This document shows, in pieces, positions 3,372 to 17,636 of a DNA stretch of 64,000 bases. How positions within the stretch are numbered: position 1 is the first letter of the stretch; each line of letters opens with the position of its first letter. The notes below the pieces were generated by a model. That model made no database searches, was not told where the DNA came from, and saw nothing but the letters and a program-made list of their open reading frames with translations. Made by a program: the position numbers and the translations under genes. Source of the stretch: Armatimonas rosea (GTDB taxonomy: Bacteria; Armatimonadota; Armatimonadia; Armatimonadales; Armatimonadaceae); assembly GCF_014202505.1 (NCBI RefSeq), contig NZ_JACHGW010000001.1, positions 1,240,001 to 1,304,000 on the forward strand, given 5' to 3'.

Positions 3372-4559
3372 ATGTGGCAGATTATCTTTAAGAAGGAGTT
3401 CAAGGAGATCTTCTCCGACTCCCGGACACGCTTCAATGTGATTGCAAGCCCGCTGCTCATCACGCCCCTTGTCCTGGCACTGATCGGGACCATGGCGCAG
3501 AAGCAGGCCAAGGACAGCCGCAACGAGAGCATCAAGGTGGGGGTGGTGGGGATGGAAAAGGCTCCGCACCTCATGGACGAGCTCAAGGGGGCCAATAAGA
3601 TCATCCTGGAGCCGGTCGCCACGGTCGAGGCAGCGGAGGAGAACATCCGCAAGCGAACCCAGAAGGCCGCGCTGATCCTCCCTGACGATGCCGATGAGCG
3701 GCTCGACAACGGCGACTCGCTCTCGGTTCCCGTGGTACAGGATGCGGGCAACGAGGCATCGGAGCAGGCAGCCAAGCGCGTGAAAGAGCTCCTCACCGAG
3801 CGCGGCGATCTGCTGGCGGCGCGGCGCCTCCAAGACGCGGGCCTCTCCAAGCAGCTGGTCAAGCCCTTCCTGGTGGGCGACAAGAAGATCAGTGGCAGCG
3901 GCGGCAGTGGTATGCAGCTCCTGGCGACCTTCTTACCCTACATCCTGGCCCTCTCCGCGATCATGGGAGGCATGATGGCCGCCACCGACTCCGTCGCGGG
4001 GGAGAAAGAGCGCGGGACCCTAGAGACCCTGCTGGTCGCCCCGCTCTCCCGGCGCGATATCGCCCTGGGCAAGTTCTGCACGGTCACCGCGACGGCCCTG
4101 GTGAGTAGCCTGCTCTCGATCGTGGGGCTCTTCTGGCCGTTCTACATCAAGCTCCCCATGTTCGACTGGATGACCCGTGATGGCCTCAGCCTGGGACCGT
4201 CGGCCTTTGCGGCGATCCTCTTGGTGCAGCTCCCTCTGGCCGTGCTGGGCGCGGGCGTGCTCCTGGCGCTCTCGACCATGGCACGCAACCAGAAAGAGAT
4301 GCAGACCATGATGGGCCCAATCATCCTGGCGGCCAGCGTGGGGGCGATGCTCTCGATGCTGGTTCGTGCCGATGCCGAGCTCTACTGGGCGGTGGTTCCC
4401 ATCACCAACGCGGGGCTGGTGCTCAAGCAGGCGCTCCAGGGAATGCTCAACCCGACCTTTGTGGGCCTCGCCTGTGCCATGTCCGTGGTCTATGCCGCGG
4501 TCGCGGTCGCCTTTGCCGCGAGCCTCTTCAAGCGCGAGGAGGTCCTGGCACGGTTCTGA
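3372..4559 (+). CDS. natB: ABC-2 type permease, NatB-like
   Basis: A 395-residue membrane protein. The N-terminal helix (residues 20-45) is followed by a large extracytoplasmic domain (about 46-185) containing the KVGVVGME strand, then about five further helices from residue 190 on. The motif VAGEKERGTLETLLVAPLSRRDIALGK is the conserved ABC-2 loop of NatB/YhaP proteins. It is the last gene of the operon and presumably forms a heterotetramer with the ATPase encoded just upstream. A 75-bp gap with no obvious strong terminator separates it from msrA. Confidence 0.88.
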   Translation: MWQIIFKKEFKEIFSDSRTRFNVIASPLLITPLVLALIGTMAQKQAKDSRNESIKVGVVGMEKAPHLMDELKGANKIILEPVATVEAAEENIRKRTQKAALILPDDADERLDNGDSLSVPVVQDAGNEASEQAAKRVKELLTERGDLLAARRLQDAGLSKQLVKPFLVGDKKISGSGGSGMQLLATFLPYILALSAIMGGMMAATDSVAGEKERGTLETLLVAPLSRRDIALGKFCTVTATALVSSLLSIVGLFWPFYIKLPMFDWMTRDGLSLGPSAFAAILLVQLPLAVLGAGVLLALSTMARNQKEMQTMMGPIILAASVGAMLSMLVRADAELYWAVVPITNAGLVLKQALQGMLNPTFVGLACAMSVVYAAVAVAFAASLFKREEVLARF

Positions 4560-11754: not shown

Positions 11755-12963
11755 ATGCGACCCTGGTTTTATCTGGCGCTAGGCTCTCTGCTGAGCGGCT
11801 GCACCCCGAGAAATCCCGCCCCGCTCCCGCTCCTCCAGCTCCACAACGGGGGGATGGAGCAGGGCACCGATGCCCCCACGGACTGGGGCGGCGACTGGGT
11901 GGGCTACAAGCGCCATGCCCTGAGCCGCGACACGCAAGTCAAGCACAGCGGGAGCGCGTCGCTACGCTTTCAGCTCACCCCCCGCGACCACGAGCGAACC
12001 TTGGAGCAGCTGGTTGTCGGGGGGGCAGGGCGCTCCGTGGTGCTGAGTGGCTGGCTCAAGACCGAGGGAGCCCTTCGAGTTCAGGTGGGGGTCTTGCCCT
12101 ACGGCAGCCGTGGTACCGCGCTCGCCGCTCCCGCCTTTTTTATGGTGGAAAAGCCCACGGGCTGGACCCACTTCTCGCAGCCGCTCACCCTCCCGGAGAA
12201 CGCCCTGAGCTTCAGTGTGGCGCTTCGGGCGGCGGGCGCGGGGGCGGTCTGGCTCGACGATGTCCAGCTCTCGGGGGAGCGTGTGGAGACAGTTCCCTCC
12301 GATCCGCTGACCGTGCTCCCGCCCCAGCACCAGGAGCCCGAGCGCCCCTACCCCGGCACGCACCTGCCCACCTGGTACGAGGTGCACCAGGCGCTCAAGG
12401 CCCAGGCACGCAGCGCAACCCCGAATATCGTCTTTCTGGGCGACTCGATCACCAAGCGCTGGCGGCTCGACGGTAGCGACGAGTGGGAGCGGTTCTTTGC
12501 GCCGCTGGGGGCGCTCAACCTGGGTTTGGAAGGGGACCGGACCTCGCAGGTGCTCTGGCGCATCCAAGACGGCACGCTCGCGGGGCTCCATCCCAAGCTC
12601 GTGGTGCTTGCGGTGGGGGCCAACAACCTGATCCGCGATACCTACCCCCCGGAGCGTGTCGCGGCGGGCGTGCTGGCCTGCGTCCGTGCGGTCGAGCGCG
12701 CCTGTCCGGGCACAAAGGTCTTGGTCGTGGGCATCTTCCCCACAGAAAAGAGCGCCACCCACCCGATCCGCGCACGCATCCAGCAGACCAACGCCCTGCT
12801 CGCCGCCCAGCTCCCGCACTTCCTAGAGCTGGGCAAGGACTTCCTAGAGCCCGACGGCACCCTCAGCGACCGCCTCTTCCCCGACCAGATCCACCCCAAC
12901 GCCGCCGGCTACCGCCTCTACCGCGAGCGCCTCCTCCCAAAAATTCAGAGTTTGGTTAAGTAA
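11755..12963 (+). CDS. SGNH/GDSL-family lipoprotein esterase with N-terminal carbohydrate-binding-like domain
   Basis: A 402-residue predicted lipoprotein: lipobox LLSGC at residues 13-17. Residues about 25-180 form a beta-sandwich like those in CBM or DUF642-type proteins (NGGMEQGTDAPTDWGGDWVGYK, AVWLDDVQLSGE). The SGNH hydrolase follows: block I GDSITKRW with the nucleophile Ser, block II LNLGLEGDRTSQV (Gly), block III VGANN (Asn), and DQIHPNAAGY (Asp-x-x-His). It resembles platelet-activating-factor acetylhydrolase-like carbohydrate esterases. Probable role: deacetylation of surface or environmental glycans, anchored on the periplasmic side. It converges on the acetyltransferase gene with DnaA boxes between. 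Confidence 0.85.
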   Translation: MRPWFYLALGSLLSGCTPRNPAPLPLLQLHNGGMEQGTDAPTDWGGDWVGYKRHALSRDTQVKHSGSASLRFQLTPRDHERTLEQLVVGGAGRSVVLSGWLKTEGALRVQVGVLPYGSRGTALAAPAFFMVEKPTGWTHFSQPLTLPENALSFSVALRAAGAGAVWLDDVQLSGERVETVPSDPLTVLPPQHQEPERPYPGTHLPTWYEVHQALKAQARSATPNIVFLGDSITKRWRLDGSDEWERFFAPLGALNLGLEGDRTSQVLWRIQDGTLAGLHPKLVVLAVGANNLIRDTYPPERVAAGVLACVRAVERACPGTKVLVVGIFPTEKSATHPIRARIQQTNALLAAQLPHFLELGKDFLEPDGTLSDRLFPDQIHPNAAGYRLYRERLLPKIQSLVK

Positions 12964-12976
12964 TACTCATTGAGAG

Positions 12977-13008
12977 TTATCCACAGGTTATCCACAGCCT
13001 GTGGATAA
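12977..13008. other. Cluster of three perfect DnaA boxes
   Basis: TTATCCACA occurs at 12977-12985 and 12988-12996, and its reverse complement TGTGGATAA at 13000-13008. All three match the strong DnaA-box consensus exactly within 32 bp. They overlap the last ten codons of the acetyltransferase gene, and a modestly AT-richer stretch (12935-12976) lies beside them. This could be part of an origin, a DnaA-titrating site or a regulated terminus; dnaA and dnaN are not in the window. Confidence 0.75.
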
Positions 13009-13771
13009 CTTCTTCGGGAAGAGAGAGGCCAAAGCGCTCCGTGAGCAGAGGGAGAAGCTCGGGCTCAGTGAGGGGCTGCGTGGTCGTGCTGGTGGCGGTC
13101 TCGGTTACAAGCTCGTGGTTGCGGAGGTAGGTGCGCTGGGTGAGGCCGGGGAGCTGGACGGTGAGGACTTTCTTGAAGATTGTGTCGGGGTGGGTGGACG
13201 TGTAGTGGCTGGCGACCTCGACATCGATCCCGTACGAGAGCTCATCCGTGAAGGCGTAGAGGTCTTTCCAGCCCGTGTTGCTGATGGACTGGAGCACCCA
13301 GGTCGTGCCCTCGCGCAGGAGGCGGTAGTGCCAGTCGCCGTGCGTTTGGGGCTGGCCCTCGACAAGCGGGAGCGGCTGGAGGAGCCCCTCGGAGCCAAAA
13401 CCCACATCGACCAGCCAAACCGTGCCCTCGAGCTCGACACGCAACAGAAGATGGGTACGGGGACGCAGCGTGACCGAGCGGTAGCGAACACGAGCCAGCA
13501 GGCGGGTGACGGTGAAGCCAAGGCTCTCCAGAGCGTGCAAGAGGAGCGTGTTCTGCTCGAAGCAGTAGCCGCCGCGTCGCGCCGTGACCAGCTTGGCCTG
13601 GAGGCTCTCACTATCCAGCGCGATACGCTGCCCCAAGAGCACATCGAGGTTCTCGAAGGGAATGTGGGTTGCGTGGGCGAGCTGAAGCGCCGCCAGAGTC
13701 TCCCCGCAGACGGTTCGTGGGCCGTCGTAGCCGATCCGGGCGAGGTAGGCGTCTAGGTCGAACTCGGGCAT
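12977..13771 (-). CDS. nat: Arylamine N-acetyltransferase (NAT)
   Basis: A 264-residue cytoplasmic enzyme transferring acetyl from CoA to arylamines or hydrazines. The catalytic triad is clear: Cys70 in RRGGYCFEQN, His107 in RTHLLL and Asp122 in LVDVGFGSE, at nearly the positions of Salmonella and mycobacterial NATs. THIPFENLDVLLG near residue 36 is also diagnostic. I prefer ATG 13771; a GTG at 13783 overlaps the upstream dioxygenase stop. The last ten codons and the stop are made of DnaA-box sequence, so the natural C-terminus may have been altered. Confidence 0.93.
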   Translation of the reverse strand: MPEFDLDAYLARIGYDGPRTVCGETLAALQLAHATHIPFENLDVLLGQRIALDSESLQAKLVTARRGGYCFEQNTLLLHALESLGFTVTRLLARVRYRSVTLRPRTHLLLRVELEGTVWLVDVGFGSEGLLQPLPLVEGQPQTHGDWHYRLLREGTTWVLQSISNTGWKDLYAFTDELSYGIDVEVASHYTSTHPDTIFKKVLTVQLPGLTQRTYLRNHELVTETATSTTTQPLTEPELLPLLTERFGLSLPEEVIHRLWITCG

Positions 13772-13776
13772 GGGCT

Positions 13777-14445
13777 CTACCACTTGTGGGCGATCGCGAA
13801 GCGGGGGTAGTCGCGGGCGTTGCGGCTCCCCGAGTGGGCGCAGAGGTAGTGATAGAAGAGCACATCGCCGCGCTTGCCCTCCACCTGAATCCCCTCGCCC
13901 AACTCCAGCTCGCCCAGAGCGTTGTTGAGGGTGAACATCCGCTGAAAGCGCTCAGGATCGCTCGCGGCAAAGGCCTCAATTTTCTTATGGGAGCCCGGCC
14001 AGACCACGGTCGGGGCACCGTCGCGCTTGCAGTCGGTGAGGTAGAGCAGCGACGCCAGGCGCATGGGGCGGGGGAAGACCACAAAGTTATCCCGCTCCAG
14101 GGCGTGGTCGATGTGTGGGCCGTGGTGCGCCCAGGGGCCGGGCTGGGGGAAGATATTGATCGCAAACGCCGAGCGCGGCGGCTGCCAGCTGGGCTCTGCC
14201 TCGCCACAGAGCTCGTCCACGAGCCGCGCCATCTCAGTGCTAAAGATCGCGCAGACCTCGGGCGAGTCGTGGCTGGAGCCGACCGGCGCGCCCTCCCAGG
14301 TGGCGGGATCGCACGGGTCGGCACCGAGCTTCGCCCAGATCGCCGCCTCGGCCCTGGCGGCGAGCTCATCGGGGATGAGGCCAGGGACGAGCAAAAAACC
14401 ATCGCGGTCAAAAGCGCTACGTTGCTCGGGAGTGAGAAGGCTCAT
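13777..14445 (-). CDS. Phytanoyl-CoA dioxygenase (PhyH) family protein
   Basis: A 222-residue Fe(II)/2-oxoglutarate oxygenase. It starts with the family pattern LTPEQRSAFDRDGFLLVPGLI. HHGPHIDHALERD supplies the HxD iron ligands, HYLCAHSGSRN the distal His, and the SRN Arg may bind 2OG. PTVVWPGSHKK is the usual pre-motif. The ATG overlaps the cysS TGA (ATGA), so it is co-translated with cysS although not functionally related in any obvious way. Substrate unknown; family members hydroxylate small molecules. Confidence 0.88.
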   Translation of the reverse strand: MSLLTPEQRSAFDRDGFLLVPGLIPDELAARAEAAIWAKLGADPCDPATWEGAPVGSSHDSPEVCAIFSTEMARLVDELCGEAEPSWQPPRSAFAINIFPQPGPWAHHGPHIDHALERDNFVVFPRPMRLASLLYLTDCKRDGAPTVVWPGSHKKIEAFAASDPERFQRMFTLNNALGELELGEGIQVEGKRGDVLFYHYLCAHSGSRNARDYPRFAIAHKW

Positions 14446-15857
14446 CTGCGCGAGACCTTCGGGCCTTGTGGCGTGTCGGCGAGGTCCCAGCCAAGCTCCG
14501 CGAGCTGGGTGCGGATCACGTCGGAGCGGGCGAAGTCCTTGGCCTTGCGTGCGGCTTGGCGCTCGTCGACCAGCGCTTGAATCTCCGCAGGCACCTCGAC
14601 CGCCACCTCCTCGGTCTTGACCGCGCGCTCCTCCAGCTTCAGCCCCAGCACGGCATCGAAGTGCTTCCAGAGCCGGGGGGAGTCGTAGGAGTGTAGTAGC
14701 CCGACCGCCCGGGGGACATTCAGGTCATCGGCGAGCGCCCCGAGGACATCGGCGACTGCTGACGCAAACGCGGTGTCGTCGGTGAGGGGCTCATCTTCCA
14801 CCCGCGCCACCCGCTCGTAGAGGCGCTTGAGGGTTCCCGCCGCGGCGTCCAGATTCGATGCCTTGCCAATCTCCTGGTTCTCCGGGTTCCACGCCCACTT
14901 CAGCTCCAGCTCACTGCGGTAGTGTGCCTGGAGGCAGAGGTAGCGGTAGGCGATGGGGTCGTAGCCCGAGGCGATCAGGGTCTCCAGCGTGATAAACCCG
15001 CCCTTGGACTTGCTCATCTTCGTGTCGCGGCCCAGGGTCAGAAACGCCGAGTGCATCCAGATATTGGCGAAGGTGTGGCCCGTGCAGCACTCGGACTGCG
15101 CGATCTCATTGGTGTGGTGGACATTGATATGGTCGTTGCCGCCGCAGTGGATATCGAAGGTCTCTCCCAGATACTTCATGCTCATCGCGGAGCACTCGAT
15201 ATGCCAGCCGGGGTAGCCAATCCCCCACGGCGACTCCCACTTCATGATGTGGTTGGGCTTGTTGGAGAACCAGAGAACAAAGTCTGCGGGGCCCCGCTTG
15301 CCGCTGTCCACATTCACATCGTCGCGGGCCGCCACCTTCAGCTCATCGAGGCGCAGACGGGCGAGCTTGCCGTAGTCGGGGAACTTGCTGGTGTCGAAGT
15401 ACAGCGCCTCAGGCGTGGTGTAGGTGTAGCCCTTCTCTTCCAAGGTCTTGTTGATGTCGATCATCTCCTGGATGTGGTCCGTGGCGCGCGGCAGATGAGT
15501 GGGGCGGTCGATATTGAGCCGGTCGATATCCTTCAGGAACGCCTCGGTATAGAACTCCGCGATCGCCCAGGGGTCTTTTCCCTCCCGCTGGGCCGCGATC
15601 GCCATCTTATCGTCGCCCTCGTCCTCGTCGCTGGTCAGGTGCCCGACATCGGTGATGTTCATCACCCAGGTGGTCTCCAGCCCAGCGAGGCGCAGGGTGC
15701 GCACCAGCAGGTCCTCAAAGAGAAAAGTACGGAGGTTGCCGATATGGGCGTAGTTGTAGACAGTCGGCCCACAGGTGTAGAGCCCCACTTTTCCGGGGGT
15801 CAGGGGCGCGAGGCGCTCTTTGCTGCGACTGAGTGTGTTGTAGAGAAAGATATCCAT
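14442..15857 (-). CDS. cysS: Cysteinyl-tRNA synthetase
   Basis: A 471-residue class I aminoacyl-tRNA synthetase that charges tRNA-Cys. N-terminal LYTCGPTVYNYAHIGN contains the first zinc-ligand Cys and the HIGH-type motif. The other zinc ligands lie in GWHIECSAMS, IHCGGNDHINVHH and NEIAQSEC. KMSKSKG is the second signature. The C-terminal anticodon-binding helices end with LAELGWDLADTPQGPKV, as in bacterial CysS. The start fits the family. TAAAAT and AGGAG about 20 and 16 nt upstream give a conventional leader. Confidence 0.97.
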   Translation of the reverse strand: MDIFLYNTLSRSKERLAPLTPGKVGLYTCGPTVYNYAHIGNLRTFLFEDLLVRTLRLAGLETTWVMNITDVGHLTSDEDEGDDKMAIAAQREGKDPWAIAEFYTEAFLKDIDRLNIDRPTHLPRATDHIQEMIDINKTLEEKGYTYTTPEALYFDTSKFPDYGKLARLRLDELKVAARDDVNVDSGKRGPADFVLWFSNKPNHIMKWESPWGIGYPGWHIECSAMSMKYLGETFDIHCGGNDHINVHHTNEIAQSECCTGHTFANIWMHSAFLTLGRDTKMSKSKGGFITLETLIASGYDPIAYRYLCLQAHYRSELELKWAWNPENQEIGKASNLDAAAGTLKRLYERVARVEDEPLTDDTAFASAVADVLGALADDLNVPRAVGLLHSYDSPRLWKHFDAVLGLKLEERAVKTEEVAVEVPAEIQALVDERQAARKAKDFARSDVIRTQLAELGWDLADTPQGPKVSRR

Positions 15858-16918: not shown

Positions 16919-17569
16919 TTACTTGCGACGGCGGCGGATCGCGACCGCAACCGGGGCGAGACCAAGACCGAAGAGCGCCAGGGTGGCGGGCTCCGGGATG
17001 ACCGCAACGAGGGTCACGTTCATGGCGGCATCGGGCCAAGCGTAGGTGGTCTGCGCGGGGCTACCGGAGAAGGCTTGGGTGACGGGGGCTTGGCCAGCGT
17101 AGGTACCCGACCAGATGTAGGTTAGGTTGGCATTCGTGCTGGAGAACTGAACCGTGTTGGAACCCCAGTACTTAAATGTACCCGTGGAGCCATCGTCTTG
17201 TAGCGTAAAGATCTGGGTGAACAGCCCCGTGGTGGAACCTGCACCCGTAAAGTTTACCTGAGTCGCCTTGAAGTAGTTCTCAAAGCTGCTCCCCGAGGCA
17301 TCCTTGATCGTCGCGGTCACCGGGCTGTTAAACGTGAATACCTTGGTGACGCCGATATCTGCCAGGCGGTCCCAAGACAGCGAGGAGTTAGCCGATAGGG
17401 GGCTACCATTTCCTGTGAGGGTAGCAAGACCCCCCGAGGTGCTGCCCGTGATCGGGTTGGTATCCCAGGCGGCGCTGAGGGTGATGGTCTGTGCCTGGCT
17501 AGAACCTGCAACTCCCAGGACGATTGCCACTAGGAGAGTGCTACCGGTGAAACTTCGCGAAACTCGCAT
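16919..17569 (-). CDS. PEP-CTERM sorting-domain surface protein
   Basis: A 216-residue secreted protein. Signal peptide: FTGSTLLVAIVLGVAGSSQAQ. The mature part is rich in Ser, Thr, Gly and Asn. The C-terminus is a full PEP-CTERM signal: VIPEPATLALFGLG, hydrophobic helix, then RRRRK. Such proteins are cleaved and anchored by exosortase (EpsH), which is not in the window. ATG 17569 follows AAGGGG and fits the signal peptide; an upstream in-frame ATG (17626) would add 19 residues. Function beyond surface display is unknown. Confidence 0.85.
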   Translation of the reverse strand: MRVSRSFTGSTLLVAIVLGVAGSSQAQTITLSAAWDTNPITGSTSGGLATLTGNGSPLSANSSLSWDRLADIGVTKVFTFNSPVTATIKDASGSSFENYFKATQVNFTGAGSTTGLFTQIFTLQDDGSTGTFKYWGSNTVQFSSTNANLTYIWSGTYAGQAPVTQAFSGSPAQTTYAWPDAAMNVTLVAVIPEPATLALFGLGLAPVAVAIRRRRK

Positions 17570-17620
17570 ACTGCTATACCCCTTACGTAAAACAAAACCA
17601 AGAAACGATTGAGTAGTTTT

Positions 17621-17636
17621 TGGCACGCTAGTTGCA
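17621..17636 (+). promoter_or_regulatory. Sigma-54-like -24/-12 element facing away from the PEP-CTERM gene
   Basis: TGGCACG-CTAG-TTGCA matches the RpoN consensus exactly. It points rightward, while the flanking genes run leftward. Downstream (17647-17801) no ORF is seen, so it would drive an antisense or small RNA into the 656-residue gene, or it is chance. The rest of the gap 17570-17801 shows no other clear element. Confidence 0.4.

Follow-up and report, generated by a model that had tools for sequence, protein, structure and literature searches.

The three DnaA boxes at positions 12977-13008 of the window (the whole 64,000-nucleotide stretch of DNA analysed here) can be firmly assigned to a conserved group of DnaA-box triplets, few enough to count, that lie outside the origin of replication. 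We expect that these triplets are probably dispersed high-affinity DnaA-binding modules that act as sinks for the initiator, in the manner of the DnaA-box clusters (DBCs) of Bacillus subtilis. Control by DnaA sites outside the origin has been worked out mainly in Escherichia coli and B. subtilis, in which other regulators (RIDA, IHF and YabA) blur the role of titration. The genus studied here, probably Armatimonas of the distant phylum Armatimonadota, has a small, countable set of sites of identical quality, apparently without Hda and HU/IHF, and its seven elements of 32-51 bp represent a natural system for testing titration or an IHF-free DARS-like reaction.

The window triplet and its surroundings

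G000 denotes the analysed genome, G001 that of the sister species, and C1, C2 and C8 are contigs of G000. The features at and around the window triplet are:

11755-12963, + strand: GDSL/SGNH hydrolase gene, the convergent neighbour
12972-13014, no strand: inverted repeat, a potential hairpin (fold of 12960-13020, -26.8 kcal/mol, z -5.8)
12975-13010, no strand: complete + + - triplet module with flanking AG...CT, also present at C2:156938 and C2:449566 in G000 and at C124 and C153 in G001
12977-12985, + strand: DnaA box 1, TTATCCACA, the complement of which gives the TAA stop of the NAT gene
12988-12996, + strand: DnaA box 2, TTATCCACA, on the same strand as box 1 (start-to-start 11 bp, gap 2 bp)
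13000-13008, - strand: DnaA box 3, TTATCCACA, convergent with box 2 (start-to-start 12 bp, gap 3 bp)
12977-13783, - strand: arylamine N-acetyltransferase (NAT) ORF (Pfam Acetyltransf_2), absent from the sister species
13777-14445, - strand: phytanoyl-CoA dioxygenase-like (PhyH) gene, which with cysS anchors synteny to the sister species
14442-15857, - strand: cysS, cysteinyl-tRNA synthetase, the other synteny anchor

The original prediction described three perfect DnaA boxes, far above chance in number, at the end of a coding sequence between convergent genes, and each element of that description was borne out. All three boxes are exact 9-mers, and they are situated where the hydrolase gene (end at 12963, + strand) and the NAT gene (- strand) converge. 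They are the only exact boxes in the window. When one mismatch was permitted, 13 matches were found in the window compared to 3.7 +/- 1.9 in dinucleotide shuffles, none of 100 of which reached 13. The whole genome has 55 exact boxes in 6.33 Mb compared to nine for a reversed-pattern control. Boxes this sparse would by chance form fewer than 1e-5 triplets within 60 bp, whereas seven are observed outside oriC.

The boxes supply the final 10 codons of the NAT ORF together with its stop codon. The Pfam domain of this protein spans residues 28-257 of 268, placing the C-terminus encoded by the triplet beyond the domain. Further along the window, 16919-17626 (- strand) encodes a small secreted protein with a PEP-CTERM-like sorting signal at its end.

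The strong fold at the window triplet, between two convergent 3' ends, is what a bidirectional transcription terminator hairpin might look like. We consider this function highly improbable, as no T-run follows the hairpin on either strand, one of the other triplets is inside a coding sequence and the conserved letters are all DnaA boxes. Nor can a terminator hairpin be a function common to the triplets, since no fold was obtained for the triplets of uniform box orientation (z -0.6 to +0.5).

The replication origin

The G000 assembly (6.33 Mb, 98% complete, 19 contigs) has a DnaA gene at C1:172 kb, the product of which has all DnaA domains, including those for ATPase activity and box binding. 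Directly downstream of dnaA, and on the same contig as the window, is oriC, with its 15 exact boxes at C1:173416-173761. Bordering them are AT-rich DNA and a TAGx5 DnaA-trio, the trio coming after a GC-rich stretch. Boxes in oriC are spaced at 11, 20-22 or 32 bp when on the same strand (whole helical turns), at 13-14 bp when convergent and at 17 bp when divergent. The sister species has the same arrangement beside its dnaA, with 13 exact boxes. In both origins (L042 3417-3762 in G000; L138 2826-3147 in G001) perfect boxes are at helical spacing, with order and spacing largely conserved. Tandem box pairs seen at the family level, in G003, G006 and G007, were considered as further dispersed sites and rejected, being the oriC beside dnaA in each of these genomes.

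An origin detached from dnaA was one of two main options in the original prediction, to be supported by a skew minimum at this site. GC skew, as sampled from 20-kb stretches, is approximately zero or negative to the left of oriC and mostly positive to its right; it turns at oriC beside dnaA, and the window lies well inside the positive region, its triplet 1.08 Mb from oriC. Neither a DnaA-trio nor an AT-rich unwinding stretch was found at the window triplet, and a search for a dif-like motif for orienting the contigs produced no match. The window triplet is not a replication origin: the hallmarks of oriC, namely dense boxes near dnaA, an unwinding element or DnaA-trio, and a switch in skew, were not found there. 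Its three perfect boxes are what an origin or a second origin would share with it, yet a 15-box oriC with its trio adjoins dnaA and the skew switches at that place, and we assign such a reading next to no probability.

Triplets in the genome and in the sister species

Outside oriC there are 40 boxes in G000, of which 21 are in seven triplets and the remaining 19 are single. The triplets, with box orientations and spacings (bp), are:

C1:607529: - - +, 11/17, just upstream of pth
C1:899817: + + +, 21/21, within a CBM9 gene
C1:1252977 (the window triplet): + + -, 11/12, between convergent gene ends
C2:52541: - - -, 21/11, just upstream of an enolase-superfamily gene and its divergent neighbour
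C2:156938: + + -, 11/12, just upstream of an M16 peptidase gene
C2:449566: + + -, 11/12
C8:114025: - - -, 21/11

Spacings within the triplets (11 or 21 bp on the same strand, 12 bp when convergent, 17 bp when divergent) are of the same kinds as those in oriC, and each triplet resembles a piece cut from an oriC sub-array. A box pair separated by 2 bp is present in all triplet types except + + + 21/21. Closeness to the origin would favour titration; on C1, the contig for which distances from oriC can be measured, the three triplets are 0.43, 0.73 and 1.08 Mb from it. Their genomic contexts include convergent gene ends, positions between same-strand genes, divergent gene starts and the inside of a coding sequence, and this variety speaks for the DNA site as such having a role.

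Regulation of the promoters of adjacent genes through DnaA would account for the triplets that have pth, the enolase-superfamily pair and the M16 peptidase gene directly downstream. We judge this decidedly improbable, however, based on the fact that in both species the window triplet is flanked by the 3' ends of two genes, a second triplet is inside the CBM9 gene, and neighbouring genes differ between the species while the boxes stay. The original prediction had likewise held a promoter role to be unlikely, and for the window site our data support it.

That prediction also stated what would refute it: a skew minimum elsewhere, together with many similar clusters across the genome in the form of a dispersed repeat. 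The first part came about, with the turn in skew located elsewhere and six further clusters present; the dispersed-repeat part did not, as there are several geometries and no shared flanks, and five of the seven triplets are at matching loci in the sister species. Beyond the boxes, only 1-3 adjoining bases are common to the triplets. An interspersed repeat or mobile element was rejected, there being no shared sequence or ends beyond the boxes and the flanks being unrelated. Although seven copies in a genome might suggest a dispersed mobile repeat or chance, these findings, along with the chance expectation given above, make either scarcely credible.

Within the genus we compared two genomes, G000 and G001. 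There are 58 exact boxes in G001, comprising 13 in oriC, 15 in five triplets and 30 elsewhere. All five of its dispersed triplets (5/5) are at loci matching G000 triplets, with count, orientation and spacing identical. Across the five shared triplets 135/135 box bases are identical, although box identity is partly ascertained, because a search for exact pairs was used to find the triplets of G001; their positions and spacings are not. In contrast, linkers differ at 10/58 sites and the adjoining 100-bp flanks by 9-57%. Identity across the aligned triplet loci is 80%, and just 2.9% of 27-bp windows are without any change.

At the window locus of G001, synteny is anchored by phyH-cysS on one side only. 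A deaminase gene and a 134-aa ORF replace the NAT and hydrolase genes and the flanking DNA cannot be aligned, yet the triplet persists between convergent 3' ends, at most 5 bp from both gene ends. Conservation of the triplet through a conserved NAT C-terminus was therefore rejected, because NAT is absent in G001 and the triplet stays.

Two of the seven triplets have no intact counterpart in G001, which indicates that no single copy is indispensable. The C2:52541 locus has a single box there, as would result from one recombination step between the two outer boxes, which are direct repeats. The other triplet, at C2:156938 (L047 near 3420-3530), coincides with a break in synteny: its flanks match two separate contigs of G001, and no cluster was found in G001 at or between them.

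Two further observations concern individual triplets. At C1:899817 (L044 3318-3368) and its G001 match (L135 3060-3110) the in-frame boxes encode PVDN three times, seven residues apart. Peptide selection on this repeated motif is possible, yet the box codons are conserved at every position. The C8 triplet is directly followed by an inverted repeat of ~130 bp (L049 about 3590-3720; gacggtaaacgt...acgtttaccgtc), which is absent at the same place in G001 and looks like a small insertion.

Of 291 genomes of the phylum, two had the exact + + - module when two mismatches were permitted. Both belong to this genus, and together they have five copies; the two sites in G001 conserve the exact geometry. 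Among the papers searched, none was found to deal with DnaA sites away from the origin in this phylum. Our best reading is that the triplet set is genus-specific, known only in one genus of another phylum than that of B. subtilis.

Probable DnaA titration and possible related mechanisms

A titration site was the other main option in the original prediction; it survives and is now, as a probable function, the best one, with DnaA binding, cooperativity and sink function of the triplets being what we infer. The modules, each with three perfect boxes spaced by the rules of the cell's own oriC, would be kept by selection in the genus. DnaA would bind a triplet cooperatively, nucleating on the pair with the 2-bp gap, with the third box locking the complex. 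In this way the modules may retain a set number of DnaA molecules for each chromosome segment that has been replicated, and the sink would double as the forks pass, delaying re-initiation. Seven redundant sites and the tolerated loss of two fit titration. The triplets are not the sole candidate sinks, as single boxes, too, outnumber the control (19 in G000, 30 in G001).

Titration of DnaA on the chromosome has been reported in E. coli (PMC12371093). In B. subtilis, DnaA-box clusters have been proposed to titrate DnaA (PMC5295017, PMC5010248), and deletion of six clusters led to early initiation (PMC5295017). As these DBCs (Okumura et al., 2012) are described in PMC5295017 and PMC5010248, they resemble the triplets in being several small clusters outside oriC, in that several copies are dispensable and in the titration proposed for them. 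The pattern that marks a DBC, several consensus boxes clustered outside oriC, is found in all seven triplets. Unlike the DBCs, the triplets have exactly three perfect boxes at oriC-type spacing, and some are inside or at the end of a coding sequence.

No match to the HU/IHF family (PF00216) was found in G000 or G001, while 9 of 14 control genomes were positive; the lack of a match is unusual for bacteria. Nor was an Hda-type second DnaA-ATPase found: the one PF00308 match in G000 is DnaA itself, leaving RIDA without the second protein with a DnaA-type ATPase domain (Hda) that it requires. Since neither gene type was found, datA, DARS2 and RIDA cannot operate here by the mechanisms known for them. 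E. coli datA is similar to the triplets in having high-affinity boxes outside the origin and a proposed role in negative regulation, but it has five boxes and needs IHF, whereas the triplets are three packed boxes in genomes with no IHF detected. On box number and IHF, the triplets do not fit the datA type, which combines five boxes with an IHF site and IHF-dependent ATP hydrolysis.

Plain titration does not obviously need exact geometry, and so another DnaA-directed function is possible. The + + - class (the window triplet, C2:156938 and C2:449566) might be a DARS-like nucleotide-exchange site that regenerates ATP-DnaA: two DnaA molecules on the convergent boxes would press together and release ADP, and the third box would stabilise the complex. 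The E. coli DARS1 and DARS2 cores have three boxes, a convergent pair plus a same-strand neighbour, and this topology is shared by three of the seven triplets, with the exact geometry kept in both + + - sites of G001. We read both DARS cores from MG1655, with our own assignment of boxes, as + 14 - 12 -, and the window triplet on the other strand as + 12 - 11 -. The + + - triplets, at 12/11 bp, thus differ from the 14/12 bp of DARS, the convergent spacing being 2 bp shorter; they also have three copies and only perfect boxes, whereas in E. coli at least two of the three are degenerate. Moreover, DARS2 of E. coli depends on IHF plus Fis, and neither genome gave a match to the HU/IHF family. In addition, four of the seven triplets are of other types and convergent pairs also occur within oriC. 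Hence, even though a convergent (head-to-head) pair is reported to be essential for ADP release by DARS (PMC10380432), we consider a DARS-like site unlikely.

A broader proposal, which we view as distinctly unlikely, is that geometry-locked triplets, as modular copies of oriC sub-arrays, set replication timing without detectable HU/IHF or Hda; the + + - class would regenerate ATP-DnaA without IHF/Fis and the same-strand classes would be the sinks. DnaA-mediated chromosome organisation (anchoring, looping or pairing with oriC) in place of titration is consistent with the conserved positions, the fixed geometry with oriC-type spacing and the failure to detect HU/IHF in both genomes; no partner protein was identified, and we regard it as very unlikely.

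The expectation that the triplets are DnaA sinks also draws on the binding preferences of the E. coli protein. In E. coli, the targets that DnaA favours in ChIP-seq are box pairs with 2-3 bp between them, and binding falls as the spacing widens (PMC11317965). Triplets with a 2-bp pair should accordingly be tight binding sites for DnaA. The E. coli double DnaA boxes (PMC11317965) are, like those in the triplets, pairs 2-3 bp apart; unlike them, the triplets are not near replication or nucleotide-synthesis genes, and are perfect consensus pairs extended by a third box.
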